64,000 nucleotides of DNA from Bacteroidota bacterium (GTDB lineage: Bacteria > Bacteroidota > Bacteroidia > Bacteroidales > NBLH01), in NCBI GenBank assembly GCA_025361565.1, contig JANYKN010000189.1:124001-188000 (forward strand), given 5' to 3'. The notes beneath the pieces were generated by a model that had not been told where the DNA came from, did no database searches, and saw only the letters and a program-made list of their open reading frames with translations. Shown here piece by piece: positions 5,764 through 64,000 of the stretch. Numbering within the stretch: position 1 is the stretch's first letter; each line of letters begins with the position of its first letter. The translations under genes were made by a program, and so were the position numbers.

Positions 5764-8394
5764 ATGAAAAAGAGGATTTTTAAGTTGTTTATTTCGGCAG
5801 CAATTCTACTCGCTGCTGTAAACGTCTTCGGACAAGGAACTACGGAACTTACCGGCAAGGTAATGAGCGGAAAAGACATACTGACTGGAGCAACAGTTGT
5901 TGCGATTCATTCGGAATCTGGAGAAAAATCCGGCGCTATTACGGATATTGACGGAGTGTTCAAAATTGGAAATTTGAAACCTGGTAATTACCATGTATCG
6001 ATTTCATTTATTGGATATGCAGTTTCAGAACAAAAACTTTCTTTAGCTGGGGGCACTAAAGATTTAGGTATTATCAATCTTGAAGGAGAAGACATTTCAA
6101 TTGCTGAAATCAGCGTAATGGCTTCTGTTGCAGTTGACAGAAAAACCCCTGTTGCAATATCTTCGATCAAACCAGAAATTATTCTTGAAAAATTAGGAAC
6201 CAAAGAATTTCCTGAAATATTAAAGAATACTCCATCAGTTTATGCAACTAAAAGAGGTGGTGCTTTTGGCGATTCACGTATTAACCTTCGTGGTTTTTCA
6301 TCAGAAAACATTGCGGTAATGATTAACGGTGTTCCAGTAAACGATATGGAATGGGGCGGTATTTACTGGTCAAATTGGGCAGGTTTATCAGATGTTACAC
6401 GTTCTATGCAGGTTCAGCGCGGTTTGGGTGCTTCTAAAATTGCAGTTCCTTCTGTTGGTGGTTCCATTAATATTGTAACAAATACTACCAATGCTAAACA
6501 AGGTGGTGCAATCTCAACAATGACAGGAAACGATGGTTACCAAAAAGTTTCATTTTCTGTTTCTACTGGCTTAACACCAAAAGGATGGGCTGTTACTTTA
6601 TTAGGTGCAAGAACCAAAGGTGATGGCTATATTCAGGGAACTGAATTTGAAGGTTATTCTTATTTCTTAAATATCTCTAAAAGAATTAACGAAAAGCATT
6701 TATTATCTTTTACAGGTTTTGGTGCGCCTCAGTGGCACAATCAAAGATATTCAGGTGATATGCAGACAATTGCTAAATGGCAAACCTTTAAAGATGGTTA
6801 CAAATTTAATCCAGCTTATGGATTTGGTGTAAATGGCCAAAGAGTAAACGTAAATAACAATTTTTACCACAAGCCACAATTCTCTTTAAACCATTTCTGG
6901 ACTATTGATCAAAACACTTCTTTATCTACTGCAGTTTATTATTCATTTGGAACAGGTGGTGGTAAAGGTGCATATGGTAACAGTTCAAGCAATTTGTATT
7001 CATCCAGTCCTTATAGAACTATTGAAGGTTATATGGATTTTGCTACTATTGAGAATGAAAATGCTGCTAATGTTAATGGATCACAAGCTGCACTATACAA
7101 TAACAATAATAACCATCAGTGGAGTGGTTTTATTTCGAACTTGAACAAACGTTTTTCAGATAAATTAAACTTTTCAGGAGGTATTGACTTAAGATACTAC
7201 GTTGGTGAACATAATGGCAAAATTGCAGACTTATTAGGCGGTCAGTTTTTAATTGATCCTGCAAGGGCAAATGTTGCATTTAGAGCCAATGATCCTAGCT
7301 ATGTTAATCAAAGATTATATGTTGGTGATAATGTAAGGAGAAATTATTATGGCCATGTACTTTGGGAAGGCGCCTTTGGACAGTTGGAGTATACTCCAGT
7401 ATCTAATTTAAGTACTTTTGTTGCTGCATCTATATCAAATACTACATACTGGAGAGTTGATAAAATGTATTATGATAAAGCCAATGAAAAATCTGCAAAT
7501 GTTAATTTCTTAGGCTATAGCGCCAAAGGAGGTGCCAATTACAATTTAAATGAAAATCACAATGTTTTTGCAAATGTTGGATTCTTTTCAAGAGCACCGT
7601 TCTTTGCTAATGTTTTTGTTGCATCTAATGTTAGCAATGTTATCAACCAAAAAGCTATTAATGAGGAAGTTACTTCTGCTGAAGTAGGTTATGGCATGCG
7701 TTATGATTTTATTTCTTTGAATTTGAACTTATACAATACTATTTGGAATAATAAATCTTTATCTGGAACTATTGTTTCCACAGATCCAAACAAAGGTACT
7801 TACAATGCACAGGGAATAAAAGCTATCCACAGAGGAGTAGAATTGGACTTTGTTATGAAACCATTTGACAAACTTGACATAAGGGGTATGGCTTCAGTAG
7901 GTGATTGGAAATGGGATCATAATGTTGAGGCTTATACTTATGATAAAGATGGTCAGGCTGTTGACAAAAATGGTAATGTTGTTGAACCTTTAAGCGATGC
8001 TCATAACAAAATTAGTTTATTAATTGCTAATGTACATGTAAGTGATGCAGCTCAGACCAGTGCTTCTCTAGGTTTTAACTATGAATTATTGAAAGGATTG
8101 AAATTCGGACTTGATGCCAACTATTTTGCAAGATTATTTGCTTATGCCAATGTTACAACTTTAAAAGGCAATGATACATGGCAAGTTCCTGATTATTATA
8201 CTATTGATGCAAACCTTGTTTATTATTTCAAATTTGCTAACTTAAATAGTACACTTTATTTTAATGTTGACAATGTGCTGGATGGCGAATATATTGCTGA
8301 TGCAAATAATGGTGCTAACAGTGATTGGCAAACATCTACTGTATACTACGGATTTGGTAGGACATGGTCTCTAGGTTTAAAAATTAACTTCTAA
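5764..8394 (+). CDS. TonB-dependent outer-membrane receptor with carboxypeptidase-regulatory domain
   Basis: This is an 876-residue outer-membrane active transporter. Residues 1-23 are a signal peptide (LLAAVNVFGQ). Residues about 27-110 form a CarboxypepD_reg-like beta-sandwich (ELTGKVMSGKD, SISFIGYAVSE), as usual in Bacteroidota receptors. The plug domain follows (LRGFSSENIAVMINGVPVND, then VQRGLGASKIAVPSVGGSIN), and the remainder is the 22-strand barrel, ending in an aromatic-containing strand (WSLGLKINF). Only 5 bases separate it from the next gene, a lipoprotein, so the two are an operon in the manner of SusC/SusD pairs, although the partner is not SusD-like. The substrate is not known from sequence. 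The secreted nuclease downstream suggests nucleic-acid breakdown products, but this is inference. Confidence 0.92.
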   Translation: MKKRIFKLFISAAILLAAVNVFGQGTTELTGKVMSGKDILTGATVVAIHSESGEKSGAITDIDGVFKIGNLKPGNYHVSISFIGYAVSEQKLSLAGGTKDLGIINLEGEDISIAEISVMASVAVDRKTPVAISSIKPEIILEKLGTKEFPEILKNTPSVYATKRGGAFGDSRINLRGFSSENIAVMINGVPVNDMEWGGIYWSNWAGLSDVTRSMQVQRGLGASKIAVPSVGGSINIVTNTTNAKQGGAISTMTGNDGYQKVSFSVSTGLTPKGWAVTLLGARTKGDGYIQGTEFEGYSYFLNISKRINEKHLLSFTGFGAPQWHNQRYSGDMQTIAKWQTFKDGYKFNPAYGFGVNGQRVNVNNNFYHKPQFSLNHFWTIDQNTSLSTAVYYSFGTGGGKGAYGNSSSNLYSSSPYRTIEGYMDFATIENENAANVNGSQAALYNNNNNHQWSGFISNLNKRFSDKLNFSGGIDLRYYVGEHNGKIADLLGGQFLIDPARANVAFRANDPSYVNQRLYVGDNVRRNYYGHVLWEGAFGQLEYTPVSNLSTFVAASISNTTYWRVDKMYYDKANEKSANVNFLGYSAKGGANYNLNENHNVFANVGFFSRAPFFANVFVASNVSNVINQKAINEEVTSAEVGYGMRYDFISLNLNLYNTIWNNKSLSGTIVSTDPNKGTYNAQGIKAIHRGVELDFVMKPFDKLDIRGMASVGDWKWDHNVEAYTYDKDGQAVDKNGNVVEPLSDAHNKISLLIANVHVSDAAQTSASLGFNYELLKGLKFGLDANYFARLFAYANVTTLKGNDTWQVPDYYTIDANLVYYFKFANLNSTLYFNVDNVLDGEYIADANNGANSDWQTSTVYYGFGRTWSLGLKINF

Positions 8395-8399
8395 TATTT

Positions 8400-10355
8400 A
8401 TGAAAATGAAGAAAATAATATTTTCGCTTTTGGCAGTAGCTCTGATTTTTACTGCTTGCAATAAATTCAACGATCAATTTGATGGGTTAGACGAATTGGC
8501 AGCGCCCACTAACCTTGCTAAATACAACTATACACTAGTAGCCGCTGACTATACTGATATTAGCAACAAAGCACTTAAAATTGCAACTAATGCTGATGAT
8601 TCCGCTAAAGCCAGAAGTATTAACACAAACAAATTCTTTTCGGCAACTGTTCCAGCCTCAAATTATGTAGGTCTTTTGTTAAATACAAAATATCCTTATG
8701 GTGATTATTTTACAAATGCTAATATTACCTATACTTTTGGCCAGAACTCACCAACTTTCAGTACTTTGAATACCGCAGATTATCAATATGTATGGAATGA
8801 TCCATATTGGTATGTGGAGGCTTTAACCCCTGCTACTGCTCCAGACATTAAAATGAATAGCATTCTTAAAAATAAGTATCCTACAGCAGCTGCAGGAGAA
8901 TATCGATTCATTGAATTCAATTACTCTGCAGCAGAGGCTGCGATACAAAGTGTTGATTCCAGTTATTTTTTCGATAATTTTGAAACTCACGCGTATACAA
9001 CCGTTGCTCCATATGTTCCAATTAGTGAAAATGGTTGGATGCAGAAGGATACCGCTTTGGGTAGTGTAAAAGGAATTTACAATTGTAGATTTTTCAGTGC
9101 AAACAGGTATGCACAAATAACTTCAAACGCAACAAACGAGAAAAACGATGTGTTTTTGATTACAAAACAGATAGATTTAACACTGGCAACAAATCCCGTT
9201 TTAAAATTTGATGTAAATGTGGGTTATTGGAATGCAACCTGTTTACAGGTTCTTGTTTCTGAGGATTTCGATGGTAATGTTGCAAATATCGGAGCAGCTA
9301 CATGGAATGATATAACCTCAAACTTTACTTTACCTGTAATACCAATTGCTGCCTATGGAACACTAGCGCCCGCAGGTATAGCTGATTTAACTTCTTATGC
9401 CGGTAAAAAAGTATATGTGGCTTATAAGTACAGTGGGGATAGCCGTACTGCTACTGTTACAAAAATTACTACCACCTACCAACTTGATAATATTAAGGTT
9501 TGCAAAACAACTCAAGGACTTACTATACCAAGTTCAGAGAAACAGTATCTTACTTATAATTTTGACGGTACCAATTGGGTTAAACTAAGTAGTGAAACCT
9601 ATTATGTACTTCAGCCTGCAGATTATACTGCAATGGGATTAACTTCAATTTCTGCATCCGATTTGGTTAATTATATTCCAAATTTCTTAAAGATTAAATA
9701 TCCATACGCATTAGAGGGTGCATCTAAAAATGTAGTTTATAAAACTTCTACTGGTGTTAATAATGCTACTCAATTTGTATTATCAGGAGGTGTTTGGTCA
9801 TCAAATACATTTAAAATCAGCAAAACGGAACAATTTGTTTTTACAGCTGATGGTTGGGTTTTTGATCCTACAATCAATATGGAAATGGCAAAAACTGATT
9901 ATCAGATTATGGTGGACTATGTTTTTGCAAACTCATCACTTTCAATTTTTGCTAATCCTGAATTTAAAAACGAGGAGTTTTATTACGGATTTGGAAGCAG
10001 ATATTCAAATGTTAGTTTCAGGTTAAGTTACCGCGATCCTTTCTATTTTATTGGTAAAACATATCAACAACCAGCATCTGCTGATGCTGAGTTATTTGCG
10101 CTAACATCTACTACCGATAAAGTTGCTTTACTTTGGACCAGAATGGAAGAAGGTATGAACATATTTTTACAGAAACGATTCCCTAATGCAATTCCACAGG
10201 TTAGTGGAGTAGATGTTTTCTACAATGTAAAGGTAAAAATTTATACTCCGGATGGTGTTACATCAACAGTTACAGATACTTACATTTATAAGTATCAATG
10301 TACTGGTGCTGGTTCTCCTCCAACATTTGTGTTTATTTCAAAAACAAAAGTGTAG
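8400..10355 (+). CDS. Surface lipoprotein with choice-of-anchor-J/DUF5017-like domain, receptor partner
   Basis: The 651-residue protein begins with a lipoprotein signal peptide ending at C20 (ALIFTAC), so it is probably lipidated and surface-exposed. Residues about 195-365 resemble the choice-of-anchor J / DUF5017 type of beta-sandwich: FFDNFETHAY, NGWMQKD, LTLATNPVLKFDVNVGYWNA and TYQLDNIKVCK. The remaining N- and C-terminal regions are rich in Tyr, Thr and Asp and contain repeated YPYG/YPYA-type motifs near KYPY. It is translationally close to the TonB receptor (5-base gap) and is followed by a strong terminator, so the operon ends here. It occupies the SusD-like position but has no visible TPR or SusD fold. 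A substrate-binding role is inferred from context. Confidence 0.75.
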   Translation: MKMKKIIFSLLAVALIFTACNKFNDQFDGLDELAAPTNLAKYNYTLVAADYTDISNKALKIATNADDSAKARSINTNKFFSATVPASNYVGLLLNTKYPYGDYFTNANITYTFGQNSPTFSTLNTADYQYVWNDPYWYVEALTPATAPDIKMNSILKNKYPTAAAGEYRFIEFNYSAAEAAIQSVDSSYFFDNFETHAYTTVAPYVPISENGWMQKDTALGSVKGIYNCRFFSANRYAQITSNATNEKNDVFLITKQIDLTLATNPVLKFDVNVGYWNATCLQVLVSEDFDGNVANIGAATWNDITSNFTLPVIPIAAYGTLAPAGIADLTSYAGKKVYVAYKYSGDSRTATVTKITTTYQLDNIKVCKTTQGLTIPSSEKQYLTYNFDGTNWVKLSSETYYVLQPADYTAMGLTSISASDLVNYIPNFLKIKYPYALEGASKNVVYKTSTGVNNATQFVLSGGVWSSNTFKISKTEQFVFTADGWVFDPTINMEMAKTDYQIMVDYVFANSSLSIFANPEFKNEEFYYGFGSRYSNVSFRLSYRDPFYFIGKTYQQPASADAELFALTSTTDKVALLWTRMEEGMNIFLQKRFPNAIPQVSGVDVFYNVKVKIYTPDGVTSTVTDTYIYKYQCTGAGSPPTFVFISKTKV

Positions 10356-10370
10356 TTGATCTGATAATAA

Positions 10371-10405
10371 AAAAACCCTGTCAGTTTTTGACAGGGTTTT
10401 TTTTT
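10371..10405 (+). terminator. Strong Rho-independent terminator closing the receptor operon
   Basis: A 13-bp perfect stem (10371-10383 with 10389-10401, core ACCCTGTCA / TGACAGGGT) has a 5-base loop and runs into a stretch of T. Confidence 0.9.
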
Positions 10406-10602
10406 CAGTTTTATCCTCCATATTTTTATTTATTCATTGAGTTGATACTACTGATTTCAGAAATTTAGATCTATTCGATAAAAACCATTTCCAAACCAAA
10501 CCAACGTTTTATTGCTGAATCATTTTCTCTGATATACTTATACATCTATACAGAATCCAGTAATAATTCTGATAATTAGAATGCAATGCAAAATATAAAT
10601 TC

Positions 10603-10610
10603 TAATTTTG
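10603..10610 (+). promoter_or_regulatory. Bacteroidota -7 promoter element of the nuclease gene
   Basis: TAATTTTG is an exact TAnnTTTG match 44 bases upstream of the nuclease ATG. It shows that the nuclease can be transcribed separately from the receptor operon. Confidence 0.55.
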
Positions 10611-10653
10611 AAGTCTCTAAAATTGAAAAAAAATCAATTAACAATTTATTAAG

Positions 10654-13479
10654 ATGATTAAAAAGACTAAATTATTTAGGCAATCCATCGGCATTTTTTT
10701 AATGTTGATTGCCTATTCCCTCCAGGCACAAATAGGAACGCCTTTAAATCCAACCTATGGAAATATTCAAAGCACAGCCGCAGGTAATTATTATGATCAA
10801 CTGATTGGCCTTAGTGGAGCAACATTAAAAAGTAAATTAAAAACGATAGTAGTTAATGCCAATACTAAAGGCCAAACCTATGGCGATGTTTGGCAAGTAC
10901 TAAAAGAAGCCGATGAAAATCCAGCTAATACTACACAAATTTGGCAAATTTATGTTGAAACAGGTTTAGCCAAAACCGATCAAAATACCGGAGGAAGTAC
11001 AGGCTGGAACCGCGAACACCTCTTCCCTCAAACCAGGGGCGGATTTAAAGATGGAACAAGTACTTCATCTGACGGGAAAGATGTATTTTTTTCAACGAGC
11101 TCTTCACAAATAACACATGCACATGGCGATGCTCACCACCTAAGAGCTTCAGATGTTGCAGAAAATTCAAGCCGTGGCGAATTGGATTTTGGTAACGTTA
11201 GTGGACCAAGAACAAAAAATTCTTCTTTCTATGAGCCACCGCTAAGTGCCAAAGGAGATATTGCCAGGTCACTTTTTTATATGGCTGTAAGATACGATGC
11301 GCTAAGCCTTGGTACAGGTGCTCAATCAGGACAGACAATTGGTGATTTAAATGCATTTCTTCAATGGAACAAACTTGATAAACCCGATGATTTTGAAATG
11401 CGAAGGAATAATGTAATTTATACCTGGCAAAATAACCGAAATCCGTTTATTGATAATCCAAATTTAGCTGATTACATTTATGGCGACAAACAAGGAATTC
11501 CCTGGCCTGGAAATACGAATGCTTCATTTACAGCAAACATTGACACCATTAATTTTAATTATATAGCATCTGGTGCAACTAGTACAACCAGCTATACAAT
11601 TACTGGAAATAATTTAGAAGCTGATATTAGTGTAACAACTGATGCCCCATTTGAACTTTCTACAGATAACGTATTGTGGCAAACTTCATTAACAATTCCC
11701 AAGGCTGACGCTACCGACAAACAAATTTTTGTTAAATATAGCCCTACTACAAACTATTTAGGTCAGTTAAAAGGTACCATCAAGCATACTAGCACCAATG
11801 CAAACAACTTACTCGTTAATTTGATTGTTGCTGAAAATCCTGCGATTATTGAAGATGCTACCACTCTTACAAAAGACAAAACGCTTGATGTAGTCACCTG
11901 GAATTTAGAATATTTTGGAATATCTGAAAAAAGCAATCCAGATTGGTCGGCAAAACTAGCAAGTGTTGCTACAACAATTTATAATTTAGATGCCGATATT
12001 TATGCCTTGCAGGAAGTAATTGTTGACGGTGTAAACGGAGATTTCCTTGCGCCTTTGGTTGATGCGTTGAATGCAAAAGCAGGATCTGCTGTATATACTG
12101 GAATTGTTGGCCCACGTTTTTCACTTGACGATCAAACACCTTCGTCTACCTGGCCTGCACAGCGGGTTTGCTATATTTATAGAACCGCTAATTTTACCAA
12201 TATCCAATCTGAATCCATGTTCGACGCTGTATATCCAATTGGGGGATCTAGTACTATTCCAGGTTATACAGGTACCGCCTCATTGTTTTGGTCTTCTGGT
12301 CGATTGCCATTCCGCCTCAAAGCAGATGTTACTATTGATGGAAAAACAGAAACAATTAATTTTGTAAATATTCATGCAAAGTGCTGTTCAGACAGTTATG
12401 ACAGGAAAAAAGCCGATGCTTTGTATTTGAAATCAAAACTGGACGAAACATTTGATACCGACAATGTAATTGTATTGGGCGATTATAACGATTATTATAT
12501 AGGCAGTATGACTTCCGGTAAAACAGATAGTCCCTATATTACATGGTTTGCAAACAGCAGCCAGGATTATTTGCGGGCTGTGGGTGCATCCATTGACCAT
12601 ATTTCGCTCTCAAACGAATTATATTTTGAACATCAGTCATTAACTAATAATATATTAATTGGCTCATCAAATGGTATGTCTGATCATAATCCGATTTTAA
12701 TCCGGCTAAAACTTGATCAGGAAAATTTCAATGGTCAAATCGTTAAATTAGATGATATCCCAAATAAACAATTAAGCTCTGGCCCATTTGCAGTTCATGC
12801 AGTATCTTCAAATGGTTTGCCAATTGATTATGAGATAGTTAGTGGCCCGGCATCGATAACTGGTAATATTTTAACAGTATCTGGCACAGGAACAGTAGTA
12901 GTAAAAGCCTCTAATCCAGGCAATATCAATACACTACCTGCTAGTGATACAAAACAATTTAATGTTACAAATCTTGCACAAACAATTACTTTTATTTTAC
13001 CGGCTCAAATAAACCTTTCAGCAGGAAGCCAACTTCTGTTAGCAAGTTCATCTGCAGGTTTACCAGTTAGCTTCAGGATTACGTCAGGCGTTGGAAGCAT
13101 CACCGGTAATCAGCTTTATTTTACACAAGCGGGAGACATTACTGTAGAAGCATATCAGGATGGTAATGCAGTTTACGGTGCTGTTGTAGTTCCAAAAACA
13201 ATAACTGTAATTGATGACAGTCCAACCTCAATTGAAGATTTAAATAAATTAACGTTTTCAATTTACCCAAATCCATCTGATGGAATTTTCAATATTAATA
13301 ATGAATTGATTTCAGCGGACGCTGGTGTAAAAGTATTCACAACTTCAGGAACATTTATTGAATCGTTTAAATTAAATAAATCAACACTGATTGATCTTTC
13401 GCATTTGAAATCAGGCGCTTATATCCTAACCATAGAGTCTGGTAAGAAATTTGGCAGCGAAATAATAATGATAAAATAA
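10654..13479 (+). CDS. Secreted double nuclease: endonuclease I domain plus EEP nuclease domain, T9SS sorting tail
   Basis: The 941-residue protein has a signal peptide (residues 1-25, ending SLQAQ). Residues about 30-285 are an endonuclease I (EndA/NucM, beta-beta-alpha-metal) domain with GWNREHLFPQTRGG (H122 the likely catalytic His) and HAHGDAHHLRASDVAENSSRG. A beta-sandwich spacer follows (about 290-400). Residues about 410-690 are an endonuclease/exonuclease/phosphatase domain with all motifs: TWNLEY (N417), LQEV (E454), NIHAKCC, GDYND (D610), IDHIS and SDHNP (D677, H678). Two Ig-like segments and a T9SS type A tail follow (FSIYPNPSDGIFNI). Known family roles imply extracellular, metal-dependent DNA/RNA hydrolysis; the EEP unit may remove phosphates or act as a second nuclease. 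Both catalytic sets look intact. Confidence 0.92.
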   Translation: MIKKTKLFRQSIGIFLMLIAYSLQAQIGTPLNPTYGNIQSTAAGNYYDQLIGLSGATLKSKLKTIVVNANTKGQTYGDVWQVLKEADENPANTTQIWQIYVETGLAKTDQNTGGSTGWNREHLFPQTRGGFKDGTSTSSDGKDVFFSTSSSQITHAHGDAHHLRASDVAENSSRGELDFGNVSGPRTKNSSFYEPPLSAKGDIARSLFYMAVRYDALSLGTGAQSGQTIGDLNAFLQWNKLDKPDDFEMRRNNVIYTWQNNRNPFIDNPNLADYIYGDKQGIPWPGNTNASFTANIDTINFNYIASGATSTTSYTITGNNLEADISVTTDAPFELSTDNVLWQTSLTIPKADATDKQIFVKYSPTTNYLGQLKGTIKHTSTNANNLLVNLIVAENPAIIEDATTLTKDKTLDVVTWNLEYFGISEKSNPDWSAKLASVATTIYNLDADIYALQEVIVDGVNGDFLAPLVDALNAKAGSAVYTGIVGPRFSLDDQTPSSTWPAQRVCYIYRTANFTNIQSESMFDAVYPIGGSSTIPGYTGTASLFWSSGRLPFRLKADVTIDGKTETINFVNIHAKCCSDSYDRKKADALYLKSKLDETFDTDNVIVLGDYNDYYIGSMTSGKTDSPYITWFANSSQDYLRAVGASIDHISLSNELYFEHQSLTNNILIGSSNGMSDHNPILIRLKLDQENFNGQIVKLDDIPNKQLSSGPFAVHAVSSNGLPIDYEIVSGPASITGNILTVSGTGTVVVKASNPGNINTLPASDTKQFNVTNLAQTITFILPAQINLSAGSQLLLASSSAGLPVSFRITSGVGSITGNQLYFTQAGDITVEAYQDGNAVYGAVVVPKTITVIDDSPTSIEDLNKLTFSIYPNPSDGIFNINNELISADAGVKVFTTSGTFIESFKLNKSTLIDLSHLKSGAYILTIESGKKFGSEIIMIK

Positions 13480-59107: not shown

Positions 59108-59593
59108 TCAAGATATAATTCCCTTATTTTCTACTAGTTGAATATTATCAACAATTTTACTGATGCAGCCTAACAAATCATTTTTAATCTCTTTTTCCCA
59201 AAAACGCAACACATGCCAGCCTTTTTCCATAAGCAATCTGTTGTTCTTCCTGTCTCGTTGCATATTTCTTTCAATTTTAGGAATCCAAAAATCGCGGTTT
59301 GTTTTTATATCCAGCTTTTTTTCTTCCCAATTATAGCCGTGCCAAAACTCGCCATCCACAAAAATAGCCAATTTGAACTTGGCAAAAACAATATCCGGGC
59401 TGCCGGGAAGCTTTTTCACGTTTTTGCGGTAGCGGTAACCCAACTTCCACAAGACTTTTCTAAGCTTTAATTCCGGTTTTGTCCCTTTTGATTTGATCTT
59501 GCTCATCATTTCGGAACGTTGCTTGGTGGTGTAAAAGCCATTTTCCTCGCTAAATTTGGGCACAATTATATCAATTTCGGGATATGGTTTCAA
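59108..59593 (-). CDS. vsr: Very short patch repair endonuclease (Vsr), orphan
   Basis: The 161-residue protein uses a TTG start at 59593, since there is no ATG before the conserved part. It has the Vsr landmarks QRSEMMSKIKSKGTKPEL, KLPGSPDIVFAKFKLAIFVD, GEFWHGYNW and KGWHVLRFWEKEI. Vsr nicks T:G mismatches that arise from deamination of 5-methylcytosine. It normally sits next to a cytosine-5 DNA methyltransferase, but no methylase or restriction gene is nearby. It lies beside a Bro-N gene in an accessory-looking stretch, suggesting horizontal acquisition. Confidence 0.93.
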   Translation of the reverse strand: MKPYPEIDIIVPKFSEENGFYTTKQRSEMMSKIKSKGTKPELKLRKVLWKLGYRYRKNVKKLPGSPDIVFAKFKLAIFVDGEFWHGYNWEEKKLDIKTNRDFWIPKIERNMQRDRKNNRLLMEKGWHVLRFWEKEIKNDLLGCISKIVDNIQLVENKGIIS

Positions 59594-60742: not shown

Positions 60743-61312
60743 TTACCTCAACAAGCTGGTGTGTCGCACATCCTGTAATTCAAATTTTTCTATTTCCGGA
60801 TGCCTATTGATAAATAATTTGTTGCTACCCGAATAATACCATATTGATATTCCGTTATTACCACCAACAAGTTCGCGATTTATGATAATATTATATTGAG
60901 CCAGTTTCTTTTTGGCCATAATAACATTTTGATTACCAATGGTATTGTTATTGATTTCTAACACAGATGCACCACCCACAATTGTGGTATGAATTTTTCT
61001 TAAACTTATTCCTTTTTTCAATAATTCTTTCACCATAAAGTCAATAGAACAGCTAACAAACTTAAAATCAATGGTATCAGGTTGATGTATGAAACATGGA
61101 TCAGGACATGTATCGGAACATTTAGATTCATATTTTGATCTGTCAGGCATTTGTGCATGGCATATTAACGACAATCGTTTAGGTACATGAAATATTACAG
61201 ACAAACAAGAGCCTAATACTGTCCATATCCTATCATTGGGATTTCTTAAAATTTCTAATTCACCTATGTTTAAAAATTTAAAGTTCTTCGAATTATCCAG
61301 CTCTTGATTCAT
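60743..61312 (-). CDS. cheD: CheD-like chemoreceptor glutamine deamidase, orphan
   Basis: The 189-residue protein has the CheD active-site pattern: the catalytic Cys C36 in VLGSCLSVIF and His H52 in CHAQMPD, then KKGISLRKIHTTIVGGASVL, NTIGNQNVIMAKKKL, ELVGGNNGISIWYYSG and NKLFINR. CheD deamidates or de-esterifies glutamines in chemoreceptors and feeds back on CheC. The insert after H52 is unusual for its cysteines (C65, C69, C73 in KCSDTCPDPCF). No other chemotaxis gene is in the window, which is notable in a non-flagellated group, so its target is unknown. Confidence 0.85.
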   Translation of the reverse strand: MNQELDNSKNFKFLNIGELEILRNPNDRIWTVLGSCLSVIFHVPKRLSLICHAQMPDRSKYESKCSDTCPDPCFIHQPDTIDFKFVSCSIDFMVKELLKKGISLRKIHTTIVGGASVLEINNNTIGNQNVIMAKKKLAQYNIIINRELVGGNNGISIWYYSGSNKLFINRHPEIEKFELQDVRHTSLLR

Positions 61313-61598: not shown

Positions 61599-62732
61599 TC
61601 AGCAACCTCCGCCACCACCCGCTTTTTGTTTCTTCTTAACTGGTGGTGCTTTGCTTTCTTTATCAGTAGCTTGGCTTGTATTGCCGGCAACTGTTGTTGC
61701 CGTTTTCAAACTTGGATTCATACCTTCAACCAATTCGTAATCAGCAATATCCCTTGATGGTGTAAATACTTTATCGTTAAAGCTTTGGGTAAAATTGTGC
61801 ATAAACCCACTAGCGCCAAATGACAATGATTGCGCATTGTAGCCCAAAACCCTAAGATATGCCACAACTGATGCACTGGTCTGCCCGCTTAGGCAATACA
61901 CCACAATGGGCTTGTCGGTGGGCAGGTTTTTCAGCATTTTGTCTTTGGAAAACGATTTTTTGGGTTCAAACATAATGGCGCCAGGCAAATGACCTTTGTT
62001 ATAATGTTGTGATGGCCAATAATTAACAATATAATAGTTGGCTGGATTTTTCATCAGCGTATCCACTTTTATCCTAGCAGGATCAAATCCTTCACCGGCA
62101 ATGGTTTTGGCTCGGTTTAGCATAATTGAATATCCACCAATTTCATTGGTTGTAATCTGCGGAAAATCGTATGTTTTTGGGCTGGTGTAGCTTGTTTTTT
62201 CAAGGATGGAAGTGTATTTATCCGAAATATTGTCCACTATTTTATTGGGTGTTATTTTTTTGCTCCATCCGGACATGCCGAATTTTAAAGCATATACATT
62301 GCTGTGCCCTATCAGGTGCAGTAATGTTGTATAATAAGATGCAGTCTGACCTGTGTGGCATGCAATTACCACTTTTTCATATGCACTTGTATTAACAGAT
62401 TTATCGAGGTAATCGATTAAATTCTTTGGATTTACGAGTATAGCGCCATCAATATGTCCAGCTTCATATTCAGAAGTATCGCGGATATCGAGGATTAGAT
62501 AATTGGATTTGTTTTCCCAAACATCTGCAGCAGGAACCAAAAATGGTGCTTGCTCGGAATTGATAATGTCGCCCGATTTTTGGATAAAATCGTATAATTG
62601 GGCGGTCTCATTCAGGTTGGAAGAGCTATCTTGTTGCGAGGCTTCCTTTTCCGTTTGTTTGTTTCCGCAGGAAGAAAGGAAAAATAAGCTTCCGGCTATG
62701 ATGATGGTTAAAAGTAAATTGAATTGCTTCAT
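61599..62732 (-). CDS. Double rhodanese-domain lipoprotein with GGGGGC C-terminal tail
   Basis: The 377-residue protein has a lipoprotein signal (SLFFLSSC, Cys22) and is predicted to be periplasmic or outer-membrane anchored. Two rhodanese domains follow: about 65-160 with active-site loop ACHTGQTAS (C125) and about 205-320 with YCLSGQTSA (C280). Both active cysteines are present, so persulfide transfer is feasible. The linker (about 345-362) is rich in Ser, Thr and Asp, and the last 12 residues are KKKQKAGGGGGC. The same style of tail occurs in the next two genes. It is the last of three leftward genes and ends at a terminator. Confidence 0.9.
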   Translation of the reverse strand: MKQFNLLLTIIIAGSLFFLSSCGNKQTEKEASQQDSSSNLNETAQLYDFIQKSGDIINSEQAPFLVPAADVWENKSNYLILDIRDTSEYEAGHIDGAILVNPKNLIDYLDKSVNTSAYEKVVIACHTGQTASYYTTLLHLIGHSNVYALKFGMSGWSKKITPNKIVDNISDKYTSILEKTSYTSPKTYDFPQITTNEIGGYSIMLNRAKTIAGEGFDPARIKVDTLMKNPANYYIVNYWPSQHYNKGHLPGAIMFEPKKSFSKDKMLKNLPTDKPIVVYCLSGQTSASVVAYLRVLGYNAQSLSFGASGFMHNFTQSFNDKVFTPSRDIADYELVEGMNPSLKTATTVAGNTSQATDKESKAPPVKKKQKAGGGGGC

Positions 62733-62840
62733 TTTATATGGATTTTGAATATTCTGACTGAATTTCTATGGATATTATTCTTTAGAGCAAATGATATGTG
62801 ATTTGTAAATCCTTTTGGCAATAATTATGTTAGATGTTTT

Positions 62841-62918
62841 CAGGCTTACAGCCTGATTATCAATCGTATTATTTTAGTAGGGCGTTGCCCTATTCTATTA
62901 CTTTCAGGCTTTCAGCCT
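62841..62918. repeat. Three short hairpins, REP-like
   Basis: CAGGCT-TAC-AGCCTG (62841-62855), TAGGGC-GTT-GCCCTA (62878-62892) and AGGCT-TTC-AGCCT (62906-62918) lie in the gap between the two rhodanese genes. The first and third share the same core. Each has a three-base loop. They resemble dispersed REP-type repeats. Confidence 0.65.
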
Positions 62919-62946
62919 ATTTAATTTCTATGTTCTAAGTTCAAAA

Positions 62947-63600
62947 TCAACACCCGCCACCAGCTTTTGCTTCTTTCTTTTTCTTTACAACCGGTGTTGT
63001 TCCTGCTTTGTCGGTTTCACTACCAACTGAACTTACTTTGCCACCCGAAGTTTCGCCGATTATTTTAGCAAAATCGAATTTTGCTTTTTCGTCACGGTAA
63101 TTTCCTGACAAAGGGGCATATTTCTTTATAATATATTCATTTACATAATCATATCCGCCCAACATGATTTTATTGTTTTTATAACCAAGTTGGTTTAAAA
63201 TCATCCAAGAACCGCAAGCACCGGCATGATCGGAATAATAAAGCAAATTGGTTTTATCGTTTTGCTTCCATATTTTTTCATTTTCCTTGTCCAAAATATG
63301 ATTTACTGGAATATTAATGGCGTTGAGCAAATGACCTTTCAGATAGTCAGGTGCACTTCGCAAATCAATAAACTGAAACTTATCACTTGGTTTATATATC
63401 TGATCAACAATTATTTCAGGACCGGCAACACCATCAAAGCTCAATATTTTTGCTAGCATTTGTTCCTCTGTCATTTTATAGTGCTTTTGTGGCTTGGGCA
63501 TAAAAATTAAACCAAGAAAAATAACAGCTGCAAAAATGATAATTCCGTTAAATAAGGTTTTGGAAATTCCCCCTTGTTCTTTTTCTTGTTGTGTGTCCAT
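62947..63600 (-). CDS. Membrane-anchored degenerate rhodanese with GGGC C-terminal tail
   Basis: The 217-residue protein has one membrane helix (about 17-34, LFNGIIIFAAVIFLGLIFM) and a single rhodanese-like domain (about 60-160: KFQFIDLRSAPDYLKGHLLN, KTNLLYYSDHAGACGSWMIL, NNKIMLGGYDYVNEYI). The position of the catalytic Cys appears to be Ser (S123) and the only nearby Cys is C129, so classical sulfurtransferase activity is doubtful. A Ser/Gly-rich linker leads to PVVKKKKEAKAGGGC at the C-terminus. The tail would lie in the periplasm if the helix is N-in. It is separated from the previous gene by REP-like hairpins. Confidence 0.87.
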   Translation of the reverse strand: MDTQQEKEQGGISKTLFNGIIIFAAVIFLGLIFMPKPQKHYKMTEEQMLAKILSFDGVAGPEIIVDQIYKPSDKFQFIDLRSAPDYLKGHLLNAINIPVNHILDKENEKIWKQNDKTNLLYYSDHAGACGSWMILNQLGYKNNKIMLGGYDYVNEYIIKKYAPLSGNYRDEKAKFDFAKIIGETSGGKVSSVGSETDKAGTTPVVKKKKEAKAGGGC

Positions 63601-63786
63601 TTTGTGTTGTGTTAAACTTGTTGTATTTAATTATTTCACTATAAGCCTATTAACAAACCTCTTAAATTGAGTTTATCGATTCTCCCTTCTCCATGGGGGA
63701 ATGGGACTTCAAGTTTCTTTTCAATTCTATTGATTCACTTATAGCTCATTAGCTTAAGTTCTAATAGCAAATTACTATCTTCAAAA

Positions 63787-64000
63787 CTAGCATCCCCCAC
63801 CCGATTTAGCCTCTTTCTTCTTTTTTACCACAGGTGTTCCATCACCGCTTTTTGCATCAGTTGTAGCTGTAGAAATGCTTCCACCGCCACCAAAATACAT
63901 GGCTACTGCTTTTCTGAAACTGTACAAATCAATTTCGCTTTGTGGAGCACTTGCAAGAGGTGCTTTGGCTTTTATGATGTTTTCAAAAAATGCATTAAGC
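63787..64000 (-). CDS. C-terminal part of a third GGGC-tailed protein
   Basis: The frame is open from the right edge and stops at 63787-63789. The visible 70 residues read AFFENIIKAKAPLASAPQSE, then SFRKAVAMYFGGGGSIS, a Thr/Ser-rich linker and the tail PVVKKKKEAKSGGGC. The tail and linker are like those of the two preceding paralogues, while the visible globular part does not look like a rhodanese, so the shared part may be the tail only. The N-terminus is beyond the window. Confidence 0.85.
   Translation of the reverse strand, partial: LNAFFENIIKAKAPLASAPQSEIDLYSFRKAVAMYFGGGGSISTATTDAKSGDGTPVVKKKKEAKSGGGC

Follow-up and report, generated by a model that had tools for sequence, protein, structure and literature searches.

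Rhodanese-fold proteins with a conserved C-terminal Gly-Gly-Cys arm beside split YeeE channels: candidate sulfur carriers in Bacteroidota and other lineages

What role could a cysteine play at the very tip of several neighboring proteins? The question is raised by the 64,000-nucleotide stretch of DNA analyzed here (the window), from contig JANYKN010000189.1 of a Bacteroidota bacterium, near the end of which lie three tandem genes for the proteins RhdD, RhdB, and RhdA. A preliminary description of the window had noted that the three products close with similar tails, which translation of the minus strand bears out, and had placed these tails on different passengers: a double rhodanese lipoprotein, a membrane-anchored degenerate rhodanese, and a third protein that looked unrelated. 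The first two identifications hold, as RhdD matches the rhodanese domain PF00581 in two stretches and carries a lipobox Cys, and RhdB matches the same domain (E = 1e-11), has a transmembrane (TM) helix, and lacks the catalytic Cys. The third protein looked unrelated because the end of the window cuts its gene; the complete RhdA matches PF00581 (E = 6.5e-13) and is anchored in the membrane, and all three tailed proteins are rhodaneses. A Pfam scan of RhdA, RhdB, and RhdD recovered no other family above the cut-off, and the SoxY domain was absent. We consider it probable that RhdA and RhdB are SoxY-like swinging-arm sulfur carriers built on catalytically dead rhodaneses, which would serve a split YeeE channel and a periplasmic oxidoreductase.

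The conservation of the terminal Cys was assessed by searching a genome collection with a profile of the channel half YeeE2, a query that is blind to the tail, and reading the best 80 of at least 523 confirmed relatives. These loci (identified below by L numbers) derive from Bacteroidota, Neomarinimicrobiota, Ignavibacteria, and one Kapabacteria contig, and are mostly metagenome assemblies; the named strains among them are Lutimonas saemankumensis DP2N0-7 and Ancylomarina sp. DW003. A complete RhdA was present in 76 of the 80 loci; of the other four, two have an RhdA cut by a contig end, the Kapabacteria contig (L149) stops within YeeE2, and L148 has none that we detected. The tail counts omit two RhdB and one RhdD that are truncated at a contig end. 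Cys lies within the last four residues of 76/76 RhdA, 37/38 RhdB, and 18/23 RhdD, and Gly-Gly-Cys (GGC) followed by 0 to 1 residue forms the C terminus in 75/76, 37/38, and 18/23, respectively; the sole RhdB without a terminal Cys (L132) comes from a shortened, apparently disrupted gene. The GGC terminus is the conserved part of the tail. That the genes are tandem and their tails similar within the window would fit a local duplication artifact without function, which the preliminary description expected to reveal itself by a missing tail or a poorly conserved Cys in orthologs, but the tail is conserved across Bacteroidota, Ignavibacteria, and Neomarinimicrobiota despite the divergence of the domains that carry it; this survey refutes the artifact, and we regard it as almost certainly wrong.

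Two further surveys point the same way. An earlier one by similarity to RhdB, in which 78 of 198 genomes of the order matched at E ≤ 1e-5 (some untailed rhodaneses included) and 41 loci were read, was consistent with the main survey apart from exceptions given below, some of its loci being the same records as in the 80. In a phylum survey with a profile of a YeeE2-RhdA fusion, 65 of 395 genomes matched at E ≤ 1e-20; the match reached profile position 392 or beyond (of 406) in 40 of the 65 and covered the channel part only or stopped earlier in the others. Twenty of these genomes were fetched, at least three of their records already being among the 80, and 20/20 RhdA end with GGC and 0 to 1 residue, in a set biased by the choice of 18 of its members from matches that extend to the profile end. 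In L224, which was picked without this bias, the fused C-terminal part ends SGGC though Pfam (E ≤ 0.001) sees no rhodanese in it. The combination of a YeeE channel with tailed rhodaneses is common. A selenocysteine at the tail was considered and rejected: the stop codons that directly follow the Cys codon in the three window genes are TGA, TGA, and TAG, and therefore no TGA is conserved there. Among the Sec forms covered in the pertinent part of a selenoproteome review, those of rhodaneses and YeeE are listed and a tail of this kind is not (PMC13188914).

The second line of evidence is the loss of the ordinary rhodanese active site. The catalytic column was located in an alignment of RhdA and RhdB with the catalytic domains of RhdD; the residue at this position is Ser in 57, Ala in 12, and Gly in 7 of the 76 RhdA, with no Cys in any, and Cys is likewise found in 0/38 RhdB. 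Any other Cys column is occupied in at most 9/76 RhdA and 8/38 RhdB. Because the catalytic Cys is absent throughout, the terminal Cys is the only conserved thiol of RhdA and RhdB, and the simplest reading of these alignments is that both would work through the Cys at the tip. RhdD has kept its catalytic Cys in 20/23 orthologs for each domain, and its lipobox is recognized by pattern in 17/23, with an aligned Cys in 21/23; in the window protein the catalytic-loop Cys of the two domains stand near residues 125 and 280 and the lipobox Cys at residue 22 (translation and the Cys columns of 23 orthologs).

What surrounds the tailed genes places them in a sulfur context. Flanking DNA of the same contig shows that the operon extends on the minus strand past the end of the window, which stops inside it. 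With Pfam and NCBIfam we assigned its genes, in order of transcription, to a PhsA/PsrA-like molybdoenzyme (745 amino acids [aa]), an iron-sulfur (FeS) protein (177 aa), NrfD (337 aa), YeeE1 (186 aa), YeeE2 (199 aa), RhdA (219 aa), RhdB (217 aa), and RhdD (377 aa) (Table 1). The molybdoenzyme has an invariant Cys in the context AQCKGP (37/37 orthologs), which we take to be the likely Mo-ligand site, and YeeE1 and YeeE2 are both half-size matches to PF04143 (Sulf_transp). A second type of operon has, in place of the molybdoenzyme subunits, a Cytochrome_cB-family octaheme cytochrome (PF11783 match in L063) and a cytochrome b561. Besides this domain, the octaheme cytochrome shows the other mark of an octaheme tetrathionate reductase (OTR), eight CxxC pairs, which read CxxCH in the reference row and whose Cys are invariant in 25/25 sequences. 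A further Cys, near residue 118 in the context NFCTG, is also invariant in 25/25 (L100:5115-6710 and 24 orthologs) and could be a sulfur-binding or heme-ligating thiol. No octaheme cytochrome matched in the genome of the window, and the same search matched 0/14 control genomes, so its absence from that genome is not shown.

Table 1. Coordinates of the tailed genes and of their tail codons, in the window unless another record is named
Feature	Location	Strand	Description	Basis or remark
RhdD gene	61599..62732	minus	377 aa, two-rhodanese lipoprotein, tail KKKQKAGGGGGC	translation; PF00581 2e-29, two stretches
RhdD tail codons	61602..61637	minus	KKKQKAGGGGGC	translation
RhdB gene	62947..63600	minus	217 aa, N-terminal TM helix, rhodanese fold without catalytic Cys, predicted disordered tail KKKKEAKAGGGC	
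RhdB tail codons	62950..62985	minus	KKKKEAKAGGGC	translation
RhdA gene, 3' part	63787..64000	minus	tail KKKKEAKSGGGC	gene runs beyond the window to G000:C99:188446
RhdA tail codons	63790..63825	minus	KKKKEAKSGGGC	translation
RhdA gene, complete	L003:3787-4446		219 aa, TM-anchored rhodanese without catalytic Cys	

In octaheme-type loci RhdA is fused to the C terminus of YeeE2; the 29 fusions keep the terminal Cys, and their only invariant Cys are this one and that of the channel (GGxCPGT). The channel Cys of YeeE2 is thus present in 29/29 fusions and also in 11/11 aligned YeeE2, and YeeE1 has an invariant Cys in 75/75. Two closely related loci (L099 and L123) have YeeE1-YeeE2-RhdA and no respiratory enzyme on the stretch examined. 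Together with the two operon types, these loci indicate that the channel, rather than one respiratory enzyme, is the tail's constant neighbor. All four Sulf_transp matches in the genome of the window form two pairs, each adjoining a GGC-tailed RhdA. The second pair lies in a YeeE1-YeeE2-RhdA(GGCG)-RhdB-like cluster (L074, G000:C99:44000-63500, at 8209-11671) with an RhdD-like gene on the opposite strand; its RhdB-like and RhdD-like proteins are untailed, and no molybdoenzyme of the operon's type was found within 19.5 kb. A conserved extra partner gene beyond this core was sought and rejected, recurrent neighbors being lineage specific and reaching at most 14/80 loci.

A short conserved C-terminal motif on several apparently exported proteins might also act as a sorting, anchoring, or processing signal, the anchoring and processing forms of which were raised in the preliminary description. 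Cys occurs in the last four residues of 0/177 neighboring non-rhodanese proteins (75 YeeE1, 37 Mo, 40 NrfD, and 25 OTR; FeS and cytochrome b proteins lie outside this count), and anchoring would be redundant, because by hydropathy a TM helix is present in 47/47 unfused RhdA and 38/38 RhdB and RhdD mostly has a lipobox. In CTERM-type sorting tags, the motif precedes a hydrophobic helix and basic residues; here the Cys is followed by 0 to 1 residue, and such a helix and basic residues are missing. We therefore hold a sorting signal to be very improbable. Among 624 open reading frames (ORFs) of the 80 loci that were unmatched by operon queries (overlaps removed), a single one ends in G[GSA]C and 0 to 2 residues, and this is an RhdB-like protein of L085 that the query had missed. 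The genome of the window has 10 rhodanese ORFs, of which four end in GGC and 0 to 1 residue, all beside YeeE halves (at two loci), and six are untailed, with two of these at the second YeeE locus. Three relatives have 24 distinct rhodanese ORFs, all but one of which (without a locus) were read, and among these 23 the tailed ORFs make up 10/10 on YeeE-bearing contigs and 3/13 elsewhere. The idea of a general tag in the window's own genome was rejected, as a profile of the tail matched only the three window genes (E ≤ 10); this search is insensitive, because it missed the fourth tailed protein (L160).

Structure prediction is consistent with an arm on a folded domain. The AlphaFold2 model of RhdB has a mean predicted local distance difference test (pLDDT) score of 83, with a TM helix at residues 12 to 32, block means above 90 in the rhodanese domain, and block means of 44 to 49 in residues 191 to 217, so that the tail is predicted to be flexible or disordered; Foldseek matches the model to solved rhodanese-like proteins. 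Searched by sequence for close solved structures, RhdA gave weak rhodanese matches only (best E = 0.00059) and RhdD gave one. Lys plus Arg residues are more numerous before the helix than after it in 17, equal in 7, and fewer in 5 of the 29 fusions, with helix placement rough; together with the net charge, these counts only lean toward a periplasmic location.

The lysine-rich character that the preliminary description gave to the tail fared less well than its GGC end. At least three Lys or Arg occur in the last 20 residues of 41/41 RhdA and 19/19 RhdB of molybdoenzyme-type loci and of 6/6 RhdA and 1/1 RhdB of loci without a visible enzyme, versus 15/29 RhdA and 2/17 RhdB of octaheme-type loci. 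A docking tag was among the functions offered for the tail in the preliminary description, and a docking role for the Lys-rich stretch is possible because its Lys and Arg content tracks the operon type. In its full form, this alternative has the basic stretch attach to an acidic site of the oxidoreductase or channel, with the terminal Cys either structural or engaged in a stable disulfide. The resemblance of tails within loci speaks for it: over 37 loci, RhdA and RhdB tails of the same locus have a mean BLOSUM score of 17.65 versus 6.05 ± 1.28 when permuted (0/2000 permutations), and permutation gave 0/2000 for RhdB-RhdD and 20/2000 for RhdA-RhdD (18 loci each), all within operon type, which does not fully remove relatedness. 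Among loci in which the RhdA domain of the nearest relative is less than 60% identical, the RhdB tail of the same locus is the closer match to the RhdA tail in 14 and the more distant one in 4, with 2 ties. Recent gene conversion of tails was rejected, since codons at identical RhdA-RhdB tail residues are the same in 142/282 cases versus 122 expected from codon usage, and we read the likeness as an adaptation to a shared surface. This likeness is found mainly in molybdoenzyme-type loci, however; many octaheme-type pairs share 0 to 2 of 12 positions (0 to 1 in L094 to L097 and L108 to L110), and GGC persists in tails that have lost the basic stretch (e.g., L095, L116, and L145). Docking by itself also leaves the absence of the catalytic Cys from RhdA and RhdB unexplained. 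We consider it an unlikely account of the whole tail, less well supported than a carrier, and the carrier model itself leaves room for a Lys-rich docking element.

A third possibility is that the proteins regulate rather than carry: disulfides under redox control (RhdA-RhdA, RhdA-RhdB, or RhdA-YeeE) would gate or sense sulfur. One conserved thiol per RhdA or RhdB would suit such a role, and SoxT1B, a member of the YeeE family, has been implicated in signaling (PMC11582611). Yet RhdA is the sole rhodanese detected in 38/76 loci (partly an effect of contig ends, and with RhdB detection a lower bound, as L085 was missed), and the Pfam scan found no sensor domain in the proteins of the window operon. 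A regulatory role appears still less likely to us than docking.

The swinging-arm carrier is the most economical reading in our analysis, because a sulfur redox enzyme, a channel, an active rhodanese, and dead GGC-armed rhodaneses occur together; among the functions offered in the preliminary description, a swinging persulfide carrier is the best supported, by the near-invariant tip Cys, the lost catalytic Cys, the predicted flexible tail, and the sulfur context. In the mechanism we propose, the rhodanese domain of RhdA and RhdB would have lost catalysis and serve as a scaffold or docking domain, and the working thiol would be the tip Cys of a flexible arm at the C terminus; this arm consists of a linker, often Lys-rich, followed by Gly-Gly-Cys and at most one further residue. 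The tip Cys would carry sulfane sulfur (Cys-S-S-) between three stations: RhdD, in loci that have this catalytically complete lipoprotein with its two rhodanese domains; the periplasmic sulfur oxidoreductase, which would be the PhsA/PsrA-like complex or, in the other operon type, the octaheme cytochrome with cytochrome b; and the mouth of the two-piece YeeE/PmpAB-type sulfur channel, with one invariant Cys in each half. We infer the persulfide on the tip Cys, its handover to YeeE, the side of the membrane, and the direction of flow from this arrangement.

Each component has known counterparts. The molybdoenzyme, FeS, and NrfD subunits of the window operon resemble PhsABC/PsrABC, but the molybdoenzyme scores 470 bits against PhsA, its best NCBIfam match, for which the cut-off is 694, and the operon adds the tailed rhodaneses and the YeeE pair. 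The rhodanese Sud of Wolinella delivers polysulfide sulfur to Psr. DsrC carries sulfur on a Cys near its C terminus, and both the LbpA/sHdr and the DsrC/TusE carriers are cytoplasmic; they share with RhdA and RhdB the function proposed here, as sulfur carriers with a Cys near the C terminus, but their folds are unrelated. The Cys of LbpA is often flanked by Gly (PMC6067878). The closest likeness in form is to SoxY, an exported protein with a Gly-flanked Cys at its extreme C terminus, where the Cys of the GGCGG motif binds the sulfur substrate, a role called well established (PMC6067878); a relay from this Cys along the channel Cys of SoxT has been called conceivable (PMC11582611). RhdA and RhdB differ from SoxY in having an unrelated rhodanese fold, a membrane tether, and GGC with 0 to 1 residue instead of GGCGG, and no Sox proteins were found among the eight operon proteins scanned. 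PmpA and PmpB each represent half of a YeeE and contain one conserved Cys (PMC11582611); the two half-size Sulf_transp proteins described here, again with one invariant Cys each, correspond to them and to YeeE/TsuA. Unlike in YeeE/YeeD, where YeeD is TusA-like, the neighbor of the channel is a tailed rhodanese, even fused to one of its halves, and no TusA was found in the genome of the window.

Several observations weigh against the carrier reading. The tail is missing from 5/23 RhdD of the 80 loci, including both RhdD of the isolate Lutimonas, from both RhdD of L221, and, in the survey by similarity to RhdB, from the RhdB of L046 and L074 and the RhdD of L035, L036, L062, and L074; in the latter survey Cys occurs without GGC in the RhdD of L052 (VCD), in L068 (GSCG), and in both genes of L069 (EGC). 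A YeeE pair in L148 has no rhodanese that we detected within 18.6 kb, and the three tailed rhodaneses of the relatives mentioned above stand on contigs without this YeeE locus. The model of the YeeE2-RhdA fusion is weak (mean pLDDT of 65, with a low-confidence tail), so that a contact between tail and channel is not readable from it, and the Lys plus Arg counts around the TM helix leave topology ambiguous in unfused RhdA (15 more before than after, 13 equal, and 19 fewer; n = 47) and RhdB (20, 9, and 9; n = 38). TusA (PF01206), to whose family the known cytoplasmic partner of YeeE belongs, was not found in the genome of the window, which is 97.99% complete, in a search that matched 11/14 control genomes; a simple import to TusA in the style of YeeE-YeeD is therefore unsupported here, and export of sulfane sulfur to the arm and transfer to another cytoplasmic acceptor would be equally conceivable.

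Rhodaneses, swinging-arm carriers, and YeeE channels are each known, and their combination with a lost catalytic Cys and a fixed terminal Cys did not turn up in the open-licence literature searched, nor did a tail of this kind. The membrane-attached dead rhodaneses, with a tip-Cys arm near or fused to a channel, suggest an undescribed route for handing sulfur across a bacterial membrane. We see the case as evenly balanced for a broader claim, that these proteins form a new class of extracytoplasmic carrier in which the rhodanese thiol has moved to a GGC arm that a tether or a fusion links to a split YeeE, and that they provide a transmembrane relay which, in Bacteroidota, Ignavibacteria, and Neomarinimicrobiota, is common to two unrelated respiratory sulfur enzymes. 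How sulfane sulfur reaches YeeE-type channels from outside is described as an open question (PMC11582611), and the tailed rhodaneses offer a candidate outside donor, with one conserved thiol to mutate, whose gene lies next to that of the channel or is continuous with it. The sulfur metabolism of the uncultured Neomarinimicrobiota, in which the system is present, is likewise described as unsettled (PMC8359478). Because L. saemankumensis DP2N0-7 and Ancylomarina sp. DW003, both strain records, hold the system, the proposal is testable.

Tails of the same kind also occur outside this operon. One of the three tailed rhodaneses on other contigs of the relatives, a double one, has as neighbors another octaheme cytochrome and a fusion of cytochrome b561 with PAS domains (L203:3371-7809). 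A small, lipoprotein-like rhodanese ending in SSGGCGD shares a cluster (L070:10610-17740) with TusA, DsrE, and an Hdr-like flavoprotein that has FeS sites; this cluster is possibly a second sulfur relay with the same kind of tail. The tail is therefore found on several sulfur-handling rhodaneses, apparently exported, beyond the operon studied here. Double rhodaneses adjoin a porin-like outer-membrane protein in L151:11393-14517 (Pfam Porin_O_P) and, as judged by eye, in L070, L201, and L204. Around the window operon itself, a gene for a PLP (pyridoxal phosphate)-dependent enzyme resembling those of Cys/Met metabolism (by eye; L003:10332-11513) is divergent from the molybdoenzyme gene; its product might accept sulfur in the cytoplasm. 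Immediately downstream, a CheD (PF03975) gene (window positions 60743-61312) follows the operon on the same strand, and a small ORF at 59108-59593 presumably resembles a Vsr-type very-short-patch endonuclease, to go by its motif.

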